Of a DNA stretch of 36,581 nt, positions 9,109-13,110 are shown piece after piece (within the stretch, counting starts at the first letter, position 1; each line of letters starts with the position of its first letter). Source of the stretch: Thermoproteota archaeon (GTDB lineage: Archaea; Thermoproteota; Bathyarchaeia; Bathyarchaeales; Bathycorpusculaceae); assembly GCA_012513715.1 (NCBI GenBank), contig JAAZBP010000203.1, positions 1 through 36,581 on the forward strand, read 5' to 3'. Position numbers and translations under genes: made by a program. Under the pieces are notes generated by a model. It searched no databases, was not told the DNA's origin, and saw nothing but the letters and a program-made list of their open reading frames with translations.

Positions 9109-11046
9109 TTATAGCAGTCTGAAAGTTTCAAGTGATCCAGGGACTATAGTATTTAATCCGGCTTTGTTTGCTAAAAAGTTCGCAAAGTTTATTGTTTTCT
9201 GTTTTTCACCGTGGACTACAAATATGCGTTCTGGTTTAGGAGTCAAGTGTGTTAGATAGTTAACAAGTTGTCTCCGATCTGAATGCCCAGAGAAGCCTTC
9301 AAGGGATGATACACTCATTTTAACGCTAAGCGCAGCCATTTTACCGTCGTTATCTATCATAGTGACTTCACCTATACCTTTCTGCACGCGACGACCCATG
9401 GTTCCTTCAATTTGATAACTTACGAAAATAATCGAGTTACGTTCATCATTTGCCCAATTCTTGAAGTACTCTATCACAGGGCCGCCTTCTAGCATACCTG
9501 AAGTAGCTAAAACAATGCAGGGCTCTCCTTCGATTATACTTGATCTAACACTTGGGTGTTCGACGATAGTAAAGTAGTCGGACTTGAAGGGATTAACTTC
9601 TTCGTGAAGAATGCTATGCCTCACTTCTCTACCAAGATACTCTGGATAAGCAGTGTGAATTGCAGTAGCTTCACTAATCATGCCTTCGATAAATACAGGC
9701 GCCTCTTTCATCAAACCCCTTTTCATGTAACCGTCAATTACAAGCATTATTTCCTGAGCACGTCCAACAGCGGGAACAGGAATGAGCACTTTGCCTTTGC
9801 GTTCCAGAGTTTGATTGATTGCTTGCGTTAGAGATTCTTCAGCTTCTACACGAGAAGGAACAACATCATCCGGTCCACTATAAGTACTCTCTGTTATTAC
9901 TGTTTCAATACGTGGAAACTCTGTTGTTGCTGCTTCTAAAAGCATAGTGCGCCCAAATTTGTAGTCCCCAGTATAAACGATATTATGTAAACCTTCACCT
10001 ATGTGCAGGTGAACCATTGAACCACCTAAAATGTGGCCGGAATTATGCAGAGTTAATCTTATATCAGGTGCAATATCGGTTACGACACCAAAACGTAGAG
10101 GGATAGTGTGAAGTACACATTCACGCACGTCTTTCTGATCATAGTGAGGTGTTATGCCCTGTTTACTAGCTACATCCAAATAGTCTAGTTGTAACATAGT
10201 CATCAGATTTGAGGTTGGAGCTGAACAATAAACTGGTCCATCATAACCATACTTATACAGAAAAGGAACTAAACCACAGTGATCAAGATGAGCATGACTG
10301 ATTACTACAGCATCTAAGGAGTCAATTTCAAATTCAGGTGAATCAAACCTTGGGAAGGACTCAAAAGGCCTATTGGTACCAGGATGAATACCGCAGTCAA
10401 GAAGAACACTACTTTCGCGAGTTTTGACCAAAAAAGCAGATCTACCGACTTCTTGTGCACCACCTAGAACAGTCATTCGCACGTCGCCAACATCATAAAT
10501 TTTTGGTCGGAATATACGTTCACCTACAGTTCGAAGTATACGTTCGCGCTCTTTGCTTTCAGAATGAAGATAATGACGCATATGAGTAACAATTTTAGAT
10601 TTGATAGGTGGACTACGGAGAACATGGGGACGCCACTTTGTTTTCTTTATTATTTCTTGTAATACTGCCCCATTTCTACCTATGACTAGACCGGGTTTTT
10701 TAGTTTCAATTATTATTTCACCGAGGCTTGGATCAAAATTGATATCGGTTATTTCAGCTTCAGAGGGAATAAGTTCACGAGTAATCTTTTCTGCTTCGAC
10801 CTCAGAAATACGCACTGATGGGTCTGGACGAATAACAATTCTTTTGCGGATTACACCAACTATCTCCGCCACTATACCACTTTGATCCACAAGAATTTCT
10901 GGCCGTTTAGTATAAACAGCAAGCATTGGACCTTCATATTCTATACGAGTGACTTCTGCTTCTCGCGGAACTTTTTCAAGAATATATTGACTTATCTCTA
11001 TCTTGTCGCGATCTTTTTCTTGGGTTCGAGCCACAGTTTTTAACAT
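9109..11046 (-). CDS. fttA: KH-domain beta-CASP ribonuclease FttA (aCPSF1), transcription termination factor
   Basis: 645 residues, full length for archaeal aCPSF1. The order is an N-terminal KH-like domain (1-70), a second KH domain with GRNG at 123-126, a metallo-beta-lactamase domain with HAHLDHCG at 251-258, and a beta-CASP domain ending in the HSDR motif (FSGHSDRRQL) and a C-terminal VHGE. In archaea this enzyme cleaves nascent RNA and releases RNA polymerase, acting in the cytoplasm on the transcribing complex. The zinc ligands and catalytic motifs all appear intact. ATG at 11046 overlaps the proteasome stop (ATGTTAA), so translation is coupled to the upstream proteasome gene. Confidence 0.95.
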   Translation of the reverse strand: MLKTVARTQEKDRDKIEISQYILEKVPREAEVTRIEYEGPMLAVYTKRPEILVDQSGIVAEIVGVIRKRIVIRPDPSVRISEVEAEKITRELIPSEAEITDINFDPSLGEIIIETKKPGLVIGRNGAVLQEIIKKTKWRPHVLRSPPIKSKIVTHMRHYLHSESKERERILRTVGERIFRPKIYDVGDVRMTVLGGAQEVGRSAFLVKTRESSVLLDCGIHPGTNRPFESFPRFDSPEFEIDSLDAVVISHAHLDHCGLVPFLYKYGYDGPVYCSAPTSNLMTMLQLDYLDVASKQGITPHYDQKDVRECVLHTIPLRFGVVTDIAPDIRLTLHNSGHILGGSMVHLHIGEGLHNIVYTGDYKFGRTMLLEAATTEFPRIETVITESTYSGPDDVVPSRVEAEESLTQAINQTLERKGKVLIPVPAVGRAQEIMLVIDGYMKRGLMKEAPVFIEGMISEATAIHTAYPEYLGREVRHSILHEEVNPFKSDYFTIVEHPSVRSSIIEGEPCIVLATSGMLEGGPVIEYFKNWANDERNSIIFVSYQIEGTMGRRVQKGIGEVTMIDNDGKMAALSVKMSVSSLEGFSGHSDRRQLVNYLTHLTPKPERIFVVHGEKQKTINFANFLANKAGLNTIVPGSLETFRLL

Positions 11047-11684
11047 CCTACTTTGAGCAGACTAGACTTCTCTTCAGCAGTCAATTCCTTGTAACCCTGC
11101 TCGTTGATTACTATAATATTGTAACTGTTGCCGCTTGCAACGTCACGCTTCATAGCTGCGTTAACAGCTTTAGCTATTATTGGCAAAGTTTCACTGATAG
11201 ACATACCCTCGCGGTACTTGTCTTCAATTATACCGTATGCTAAAGGTGAACCTGAGCCGGTGGATACTGATTTCTCCTCATTTAGGCTCCCATATGGATC
11301 TAAATTGTAAACGTGAGGGCCTGTATCGTCTATGCCTCCGACTAGAACCTGTGTCGCCAATGGTATGTACCGGTTCTGGAATAGAAGATTCGCAACTAAG
11401 CGGGCGGCAGAACTAACGGGTATTGGGCGGTTCAGGTTTATTCTGTATAATTGAGCATTAGCGATTAGAATGTCAACAACTTTTTGCGCATCTGCAACTG
11501 TACCGGCAATAGTCATACCTAGGTGGTCGTCAATTTTGTAGACTTTTTTACCAAATTTATGTGCAACATAAAAACCCATTGTTACACGTGTATCTGAAGC
11601 TAAAATTACACCGTCTTTGCAGACAACGCCTATAGTTGTAGTCCCTTTAAGGATTAATTGATTAGTCACATTATTTTGAGACAT
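11040..11684 (-). CDS. psmB: 20S proteasome beta subunit
   Basis: 214 residues. A 14-residue propeptide ends in G14; cleavage exposes catalytic Thr15 (TTTIG). Counting from that Thr, the active-site Asp17 (ASDTR) and Lys33 (GKKV) are in place, as are the SGS loop (STGSGSPLAYG) and the Asp before it. It is therefore a catalytically competent, N-terminal-nucleophile protease subunit of the archaeal proteasome. ATG at 11684 is preceded by AAGGAGC. First gene of a two-gene unit with fttA. The alpha subunit and the unfoldase are not in the window. Confidence 0.96.
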   Translation of the reverse strand: MSQNNVTNQLILKGTTTIGVVCKDGVILASDTRVTMGFYVAHKFGKKVYKIDDHLGMTIAGTVADAQKVVDILIANAQLYRINLNRPIPVSSAARLVANLLFQNRYIPLATQVLVGGIDDTGPHVYNLDPYGSLNEEKSVSTGSGSPLAYGIIEDKYREGMSISETLPIIAKAVNAAMKRDVASGNSYNIIVINEQGYKELTAEEKSSLLKVGC

Positions 11685-11880
11685 AGTTTTTGCTCCTTAA
11701 AACTCCGTTTTTCGGAATGCCATCCACTAGGAAATAGCAAGAGTTAATCTTTCTATGAACTTTATTAATATTTCGCCGTTCATTCCAAGTTTAAATTTTC
11801 TATTCATTCTTAGATAGTTAAACAAAAAATGAAGTTTAAGAACTAAAACCTTTTAGGATAGCTTCAGAATCAATAGTTTT

Positions 11881-11945
11881 ATGGCGGGTGAGTGGTGCTT
11901 CCCACCCGTTCCGCCATCGATAAATAAAACCCGGGAGTAGGGAGG
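11881..11945 (+). promoter_or_regulatory. GC-rich structured leader of queT-queC, candidate riboswitch
   Basis: In AT-rich surroundings, ATGGCGG (11881-11887) and CCGCCAT (11911-11917) form a perfect 7-base outer stem. Inside it, GTGG (11892-11895) can pair with CCAC (11902-11905) around the loop TGCTTC, or GGTG can pair with CACC in a competing fold. Downstream lie CCCGGG (11930-11935) and the ribosome binding site GGGAGG, and the CTTCCC of the inner loop could pair with GGGAG. Bacterial queT genes often carry preQ1 riboswitches. I cannot match this to a known class, so the role is an inference from structure and position. Confidence 0.45.
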
Positions 11946-11956
11946 CAAAAAAAGTC

Positions 11957-12454
11957 TTGAATGTCAATACAAGAAATTTAGCAATAATCACGTTATATGC
12001 TTCACTTTACGCTATGTTGGTAATTTTTCTTCCAGGATTATCTTACGGGCCACTTCAAGTGCGCCTCGCGGATGCTCTGTTGGCAATAGTTCCATTGCTT
12101 GGTTTAGCAGGAGTTTTCGGTCATACCCTTGGGGTCTTTGTCGCAAACTTGTTTTCTCCTGCTGGTCCAATAGATCTTCTTAACACAATACCATCGTTTA
12201 TGATGGCGTTTATAGTCTACTATGTTTATACGAAAACAAACAATGATTTCACTGTAATTGCATCATGCACTGCTTACTCTACTGTCTTAGGCATTACTGT
12301 TGGTTGGATGTTGTCTTTTCTTTATGGTTATCCATTACTCATCACGATTGCTTATGTAATTCTGGGGAATTTTATCGCTAGTGTTTTACTTGGTTGGCCA
12401 CTGTTTAAGTTTCTCAAAAGAACAGGAGTTCTCCACAAATGGCTCCCAAAATGA
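11957..12454 (+). CDS. queT: QueT-type ECF transporter S component for a queuosine/archaeosine precursor
   Basis: 165-residue membrane protein with about five to six helices. Family features are the first helix with ITLYASLYAMLVIFLPG, the following GPLQVRLADALLAIVPLLG (here by its ends), the GHTLGVFVANLFSPAGPIDL region and the final KFLKRTGVL. It should bind a 7-deazaguanine such as preQ0 or preQ1 and associate with ECF module proteins, none of which are nearby. TTG start at 11957, with GGAGG at 11941-11945; spacing is long (11 bases). Its 3' end overlaps queC by 16 bases, so the two are one operon and support the substrate call. Confidence 0.85.
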   Translation: MNVNTRNLAIITLYASLYAMLVIFLPGLSYGPLQVRLADALLAIVPLLGLAGVFGHTLGVFVANLFSPAGPIDLLNTIPSFMMAFIVYYVYTKTNNDFTVIASCTAYSTVLGITVGWMLSFLYGYPLLITIAYVILGNFIASVLLGWPLFKFLKRTGVLHKWLPK

Positions 12455-13110
12455 ATACAAATACAAAAAAATGTGTAATCGTACTCAGCGGCGGGTTAGA
12501 CTCTGCAACCGTAGCATACTGGGCAAAAAAGCACAACTACGAAATATATCCTTTAACTTTCAACTATGGACAAATAGCAGAAAAAGAAACACATTATGCA
12601 CAAAAAATCGCTGAAACAATAGGTGTTAATACTAAAATCATTAATCTTTCCTCACTCAAGGAGATATTTAGCCAAGTAACTTCTTTATGTAACACAGAAA
12701 TTCCGTTGTCACAAAAGTTCAGTTCACCTATAATTGTACCTTTCCGAAACGCTATTTTCCTCTCAACAGCAGTTGCTTATGCAGTAACTGTGGGTGGAGA
12801 CGAAATCCTCTACGGTGCACAAGGCTCAGATGAACCTTTCTATCCTGATTGCAGACGTGAATTCTATGAAGCATTTGAGAAAGCTGCATGTTTGGGAACA
12901 AACCAAAAGATTACGATAAAAGCACCATTTATTTACAGCAAAAAATCTGAGTTAATTAAAGAGGGCACAAATTTGGGCGTACCATTTGAGTTGACTTGGT
13001 CATGTTACCGCAATGGTCCAATCCATTGTGGCAAATGTGAATCATGTCTAAATCGTATGGCGGCCTTTAGAGAGGCAAGAGTAAAAGACCCAACACAATA
13101 TGAGATTTAA
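12439..13110 (+). CDS. queC: 7-cyano-7-deazaguanine (preQ0) synthase QueC
   Basis: 223 residues. ATP-PPi loop SGGLDSATVAYW at 17-28, the AQGSDEPFYPDCR region, and a C-terminal zinc site made by the Cys in WSCYRNG and by HCGKCESCLNR. QueC converts 7-carboxy-7-deazaguanine to preQ0 with ATP and ammonia; in archaea preQ0 is inserted into tRNA and becomes archaeosine. ATG at 12439 has AGGAG about 10 bases upstream; a second ATG at 12451 overlaps the queT stop as ATGA and is a real alternative. All catalytic features look intact. Confidence 0.95.
   Translation: MAPKMNTNTKKCVIVLSGGLDSATVAYWAKKHNYEIYPLTFNYGQIAEKETHYAQKIAETIGVNTKIINLSSLKEIFSQVTSLCNTEIPLSQKFSSPIIVPFRNAIFLSTAVAYAVTVGGDEILYGAQGSDEPFYPDCRREFYEAFEKAACLGTNQKITIKAPFIYSKKSELIKEGTNLGVPFELTWSCYRNGPIHCGKCESCLNRMAAFREARVKDPTQYEI

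Follow-up and report, generated by a model that had tools for sequence, protein, structure and literature searches.

A conserved leader of ~66 nt (positions 11881–11946) precedes the genes for a predicted 7-deazaguanine transporter and for preQ0 synthase in an archaeal genome; judged from the sequences of its homologues, it is genuine and widespread, and the structural evidence supports it well as a candidate class of archaeal riboswitch. We consider it probable that the element is a translational OFF riboswitch that combines aptamer and expression platform in one structure and senses preQ0 or a closely related 7-deazaguanine. It was found in the window, that is, the complete stretch of 36,581 nt that was analyzed (contig JAAZBP010000203.1 of assembly GCA_012513715.1, from a Thermoproteota archaeon of the class Bathyarchaeia; all coordinates refer to the forward strand). 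The original prediction had put forward an archaeal 7-deazaguanine riboswitch at this position, and the candidate gains support from the comparisons described below: the leader is conserved, its helices covary, it lies within the expected transcript, and it occurs upstream of genes encoding QueT, QueE and QueC. A conserved, covarying structured leader in front of the genes of one pathway, as seen here, is one of the general features of a riboswitch.

Immediately downstream of the element on the + strand, queT (11957–12454; TTG start) encodes the predicted 7-deazaguanine transporter (PF06177, 78.8 bits, cut-off 33.7, E 6.4e-22), and queC (12439–13110, + strand) encodes preQ0 synthase (PF06508 above the cut-off; TIGR00364, 191.8 bits, cut-off 150.3); the start of queC overlaps the end of queT (12439 vs 12454). 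The earlier assignment of a preQ0 transporter and a preQ0 synthase to these reading frames is thus borne out by the family matches. The divergent neighbors on the minus strand (9109–11684), which border on the intergenic region that contains the leader, encode the transcription termination factor FttA and a subunit of the proteasome.

The element folds onto two helices, P1 and P2, the latter in two parts. The 5′ strand of P1 (ATGGCGG, 11881–11887, + strand) is perfectly complementary to its 3′ strand (CCGCCAU, 11911–11917, +), as expected from the 37-base hairpin with a perfect 7-bp outer stem that had been described; the conserved core is GGCGG:CCGCC (5′ strand at 11883–11887), to which two A-U pairs are added in the window. 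P1 encloses loop L1 (the conserved GUGAGUGG, 11888–11895, +), the 5′ strand of P2b (UGCUUCCC, 11896–11903, +), the 5′ strand of P2a (CCCG, 11905–11908, +) and the UU of loop L2 that joins P2 to P1 (11909–11910, +). An A-rich linker, L3 (CGAUAAAUAAAACC, 11918–11931, +), follows P1 and leads to the 3′ strand of P2a (CGGG, 11932–11935, +), which forms part of the downstream CCCGGG noted previously (11930–11935), and to the 3′ strand of P2b (GGGAGGCA, 11940–11947, +). The latter holds the Shine–Dalgarno (SD) sequence GGGAGG (11940–11945), and the 5′ strand of P2b is therefore an anti-SD. The suggested pairing of CTTCCC (11898–11903) with the ribosome binding region is present as the complement of GGGAGG and extends to a helix of 8 bp, UGCUUCCC:GGGAGGCA. 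The conserved fold is, on the comparative evidence, a well-supported H-type pseudoknot that consists of P1 and the pairing of its loop strand, UGCUUCCC-A-CCCG, with CGGG and the SD GGGAGG across the A-rich linker.

Upstream of the element, 165 aligned loci share a peak in A+T content at −34 to −28 relative to P1, preceded by an A-rich, BRE-like stretch; by position in the window, the corresponding probable promoter (11841–11857, +) consists of the A-rich stretch at 11841–11850 and the TATA-like TTTTAGG at 11851–11857. Archaeal transcription starts ~25 nt downstream of the center of the TATA box. This spacing places the expected start at the 5′ edge of P1 (about 11880), and the whole element should therefore be contained in the mRNA; a start downstream of 11917, which had been named as the observation that would overturn the prediction, is unlikely.

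The first 29 distinct sequences contain four base pairs with two-sided changes in P1 and P2a; none of 500 shuffles reached the observed covariation score, and the pairing is lost when one partner is slid along the other. Double changes in P2a include CCCG:CGGG vs UCCG:CGGA. The first core pair of P1, tallied over 158 distinct rows, is GC in 119, AU in 19, GU in 5, CG in 3 and UA in 2, and the fifth is GC in 153 and CG in 5. For P2b we used an alignment-free test in which the best helix that each loop forms with its own tail is compared with those from randomly dealt loop/tail pairs. The native score over 159 loci is 17.03 vs 14.97 for permuted pairs (sd 0.18; z 11.7), with none of 20,000 permutations reaching it; the loci are related by descent, so these figures are not exact probabilities. 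The signal persists with one sequence per loop type (z 8.5), and a control region farther downstream gives z 1.5. Between lineages the P2b helix is replaced in its entirety (e.g., ACAUCUC:GAGAUGU, UUUCCGAC:GUCGGAAA, ACCUCG:CGAGGU, GCCCCC:GGGGGC, CUCGCA:UGCGAG and CCUCUCA:UGAGAGG), and in 157 of 167 loci it spans the SD core.

The single-stranded regions are also conserved: the G-U after P1 is invariant in L1 in the 158 rows and GAG nearly so, and in L2 the second U is invariant and the first is present in 153 of 158 rows, although both observations are partly set by the search pattern; in L3, AAA-CCC is conserved and the length varies. Many of the loci were gathered with a pattern in which GCGGGT, CCGTTCCGC and AAAYCCCGG are constant, so conservation is inflated at these positions; P2b lies outside the pattern. 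An all-pairs covariation scan against a tree-simulated null places the top pair in P1 but below significance (E 0.43), a consequence of a short, highly conserved and phylogenetically clumped alignment; the significance therefore rests on helices that were defined in the initial sequences and afterwards tested in a larger set. Folding of the window element as a single sequence, which is no stabler than chance (z −0.59), is uninformative.

The inner architecture differs from that first envisaged. Two inner stems nested within P1 had been described, and both can be found in the sequence (GTGG 11892–11895 with CCAC 11902–11905, and GGGTG 11886–11890 with CACCC 11903–11907); however, they do not covary (z −0.5), and we reject them as a conserved alternative fold. 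They may form in the free state, with no covariation signal for selection on them. The comparative data instead support the pseudoknot of the P1 loop with the CGGG/SD strand as the conserved alternative fold.

Construction of a covariance model across the leaders of relatives had been suggested as a check, and the result is a conserved element in which P1, P2a and P2b covary. The model was built from 30 aligned homologues with P1 as the sole structure given. It identifies exactly one copy in the 2.1-Mb genome of the window (E 5.5e-16) and has matches within the class Bathyarchaeia in 184 of 257 genomes, within the phylum in 78 of 398 (other classes among them) and within the phylum to which an Asgard locus belongs in 10 of 195. 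When named genomes were scanned with the sequence pattern, the matches listed included Bathyarchaeota, Methanomethylicota, Nitrososphaerales/Thaumarchaeota, Njordarchaeum, an Asgard group archaeon and Odinarchaeia. Outside Bathyarchaeia, the element occurs in Methanomethylicia, Nitrososphaeria and Asgard archaea. When an 801-base query (leader plus queT) was used, 32 of 41 relatives gave matches, and in other families of the order the match covers essentially the element alone (about query positions 179–254). Viral contigs contain no match to the element. The bacterial matches to the pattern (among those listed, Streptomyces, Pseudomonas, Leisingera, Arthrobacter and Bryobacterales) were discarded as chance, as they have long GC-rich spacers and no recognizable preQ0 gene downstream.

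Variants of the element also occur. In six rows, CCCCAAAA replaces CCCCGG, and P2a is lost while P2b with the SD is kept; these rows count against the proposed switch. Six loci from the phylum of an Asgard genome have P1 lengthened and additional bases separating P2 from P1 (CCGUGCUCCGC); all are located upstream of QueT-like genes.

The proteins encoded downstream of 158 elements comprise 148 members of the QueT family, 8 QueE-like radical SAM proteins, 1 QueC and 1 probable wrong-frame call. The three QueE-like proteins that were tested have QueE models as their best NCBIfam matches, below the cut-off; the QueC is above its cut-off. In the four two-copy genomes examined that have complete loci, a QueT-like gene follows each copy. 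The metabolite common to these genes, by their predicted functions, is preQ0, the precursor that archaea use for archaeosine. Across the genome of the window and 40 relatives, QueT is present in 36 of 41 and QueD (PF01242) in 7 of 41; the window genome encodes TGT and QueC, and we detected neither QueD nor a clear QueE in it. From this complement, the organism probably salvages a precursor; the frequent QueT and rare QueD, together with QueC and TGT in the window genome, suggest salvage of a 7-deazaguanine precursor such as 7-carboxy-7-deazaguanine (CDG).

We infer the identity of the ligand, switching driven by it and the direction of control from this arrangement. In the free state, P1 would be formed, the loop strand would be open or engaged in a nested hairpin, and the SD would be accessible, allowing translation of QueT and QueC (elsewhere QueE). 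In the bound state, the ligand would stabilize the H-type pseudoknot, with CGGG and the SD paired to the P1 loop strand over the A-rich linker; because this structure would bury the SD, binding is expected to turn expression OFF, and import and synthesis of preQ0 would stop. Such a response to binding would provide sensible feedback on both processes. The mean fold energies of the nested and knotted forms are close (−22.7 and −24.9 kcal/mol, before a pseudoknot penalty), so a modest contribution from the ligand could tip the balance.

Other explanations share parts of this evidence. The same RNA switch might respond to preQ1, CDG, guanine or the free archaeosine base instead of preQ0; bacterial QueT riboswitches sense preQ1 (PMC11625349), and the excess of QueT over QueD (36/41 vs 7/41), with QueT adjoining QueC in the window, could reflect import of a precursor such as CDG. 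We nonetheless regard a different ligand as unlikely, as the element is also found upstream of QueE and QueC genes, which points to their common product, preQ0, and archaea make archaeosine from preQ0. A conserved structure that occludes the SD would suit autoregulation equally well, with a pathway enzyme or an RNA-binding repressor recognizing the pseudoknot and repressing translation, and the small-molecule pocket is a prediction; however, the downstream genes vary (QueT, QueE, QueC, an unrelated membrane protein), so no single encoded protein explains the element, and a common metabolite or a separate repressor is what such variety leaves. A protein-binding leader is therefore improbable. 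The complementarity to the SD would suffice to account for P2b, and the similar nested and knotted energies are compatible with a fixed structure or a thermosensor that masks the SD and lowers translation with no ligand; masking, however, leaves unexplained both the near-invariant unpaired residues (GU after P1, UU, AAA-CCC) that are shared across phyla and the restriction to preQ0 genes, and we consider this the least probable of the explanations.

In favor of membership in a known bacterial preQ1 class, as a divergent representative, the element has the topology and gene context of both preQ1-I and preQ1-II (an H-type pseudoknot with an A-rich linker, the SD within P2 and queT downstream). 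With class I (RF00522) it shares a small H-type pseudoknot in which an A-rich L3 follows P1, a P2 that touches the SD, and queT/queCDEF genes downstream; unlike class I, its P2 is long and two-part, and it is archaeal. In class I, the two nucleotides before the 3′ strand of P1 are UC in type I and AC in types II and III, and the C pairs with the ligand (PMC11625349, a 2024 review). At this position the archaeal element has UU in 153 of 158 rows, and no row has UC or AC; the UU is fixed in the pattern-derived rows, and the covariance-model rows likewise have no C. Class II also resides in queT leaders and pairs the loop of its first hairpin with the SD for translational control, but it comprises four helices including P4 (the HLout pseudoknot) and is confined to Bacillota (PMC11625349), whereas the archaeal element has no P4 and its A-rich linker is too short for a hairpin. 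Class III shares the queT leader and control of the SD by a pseudoknot but is ~100 nt with five helices, compared with ~66 nt and two helices here. Rfam gives no match in the window at the gathering score or even at E 10, including classes I, II and III, and none at the gathering score in ten diverse homologous loci. The earlier remark that the element falls outside the known preQ1 classes therefore holds, and membership in one of them is very improbable.

The nearest prior art to the proposed preQ0-sensing riboswitch is sRk28 of Pyrococcus abyssi (527697–527833), reported in 2011 as an RNA of 70 nt that adjoins a QueC-like gene, has a putative pseudoknot and was suggested to be preQ1-like for several features in common with the bacterial preQ1 riboswitch (PMC3124441); in Thermococcus kodakarensis it is transcribed as an orphan transcript (PMC4247193). 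The two RNAs are similar in size (~70 and ~66 nt), archaeal origin, putative pseudoknot and, in P. abyssi, an adjoining QueC-like gene, a likeness known by description only that bounds the claim of novelty; in contrast to the element, sRk28 is reported in Thermococcales only (PMC3124441, PMC4247193). The literature searched, which did not extend to bioRxiv and most subscription papers, contains sRk28 alone as an archaeal preQ1/preQ0 riboswitch and no description of the element in Bathyarchaeia or Asgard archaea. What is already known, then, is that bacteria use 7-deazaguanine riboswitches with SD-occluding pseudoknots, plus one archaeal hint. We judge it an even chance that the element is a fourth, independent 7-deazaguanine riboswitch class that is native to TACK and Asgard archaea and selective for preQ0, a single pseudoknot of ~66 nt acting as both aptamer and ribosome-site lock. 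Archaea have few known riboswitch classes, and none for preQ0 is described in the literature searched; a class that is present in most Bathyarchaeia and reaches Asgard archaea would establish metabolite-sensing RNA as a routine means of gene control in archaea, and it yields testable ligand predictions for archaeosine metabolism.

At four loci, the element or a close variant precedes a gene for a membrane protein of ~230 aa; the two copies searched (L097 and L093) have no Pfam match. Its placement under the control of the element would mark this unannotated family as a likely 7-deazaguanine transporter, and we propose it as a candidate for a new one.

A second conserved leader was found upstream of QueT genes that do not have the element, in five genomes of the class (L269–L273; also L251, L252 and L256); it has no relevant Rfam match. 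It consists of GGUAG-UUUCCGUANAUAAC-CUACC, then an A-rich stretch and CCGG, and a CCG in it can pair with CGG; AC stands before the 3′ strand of its P1, a feature shared with preQ1-I type II.
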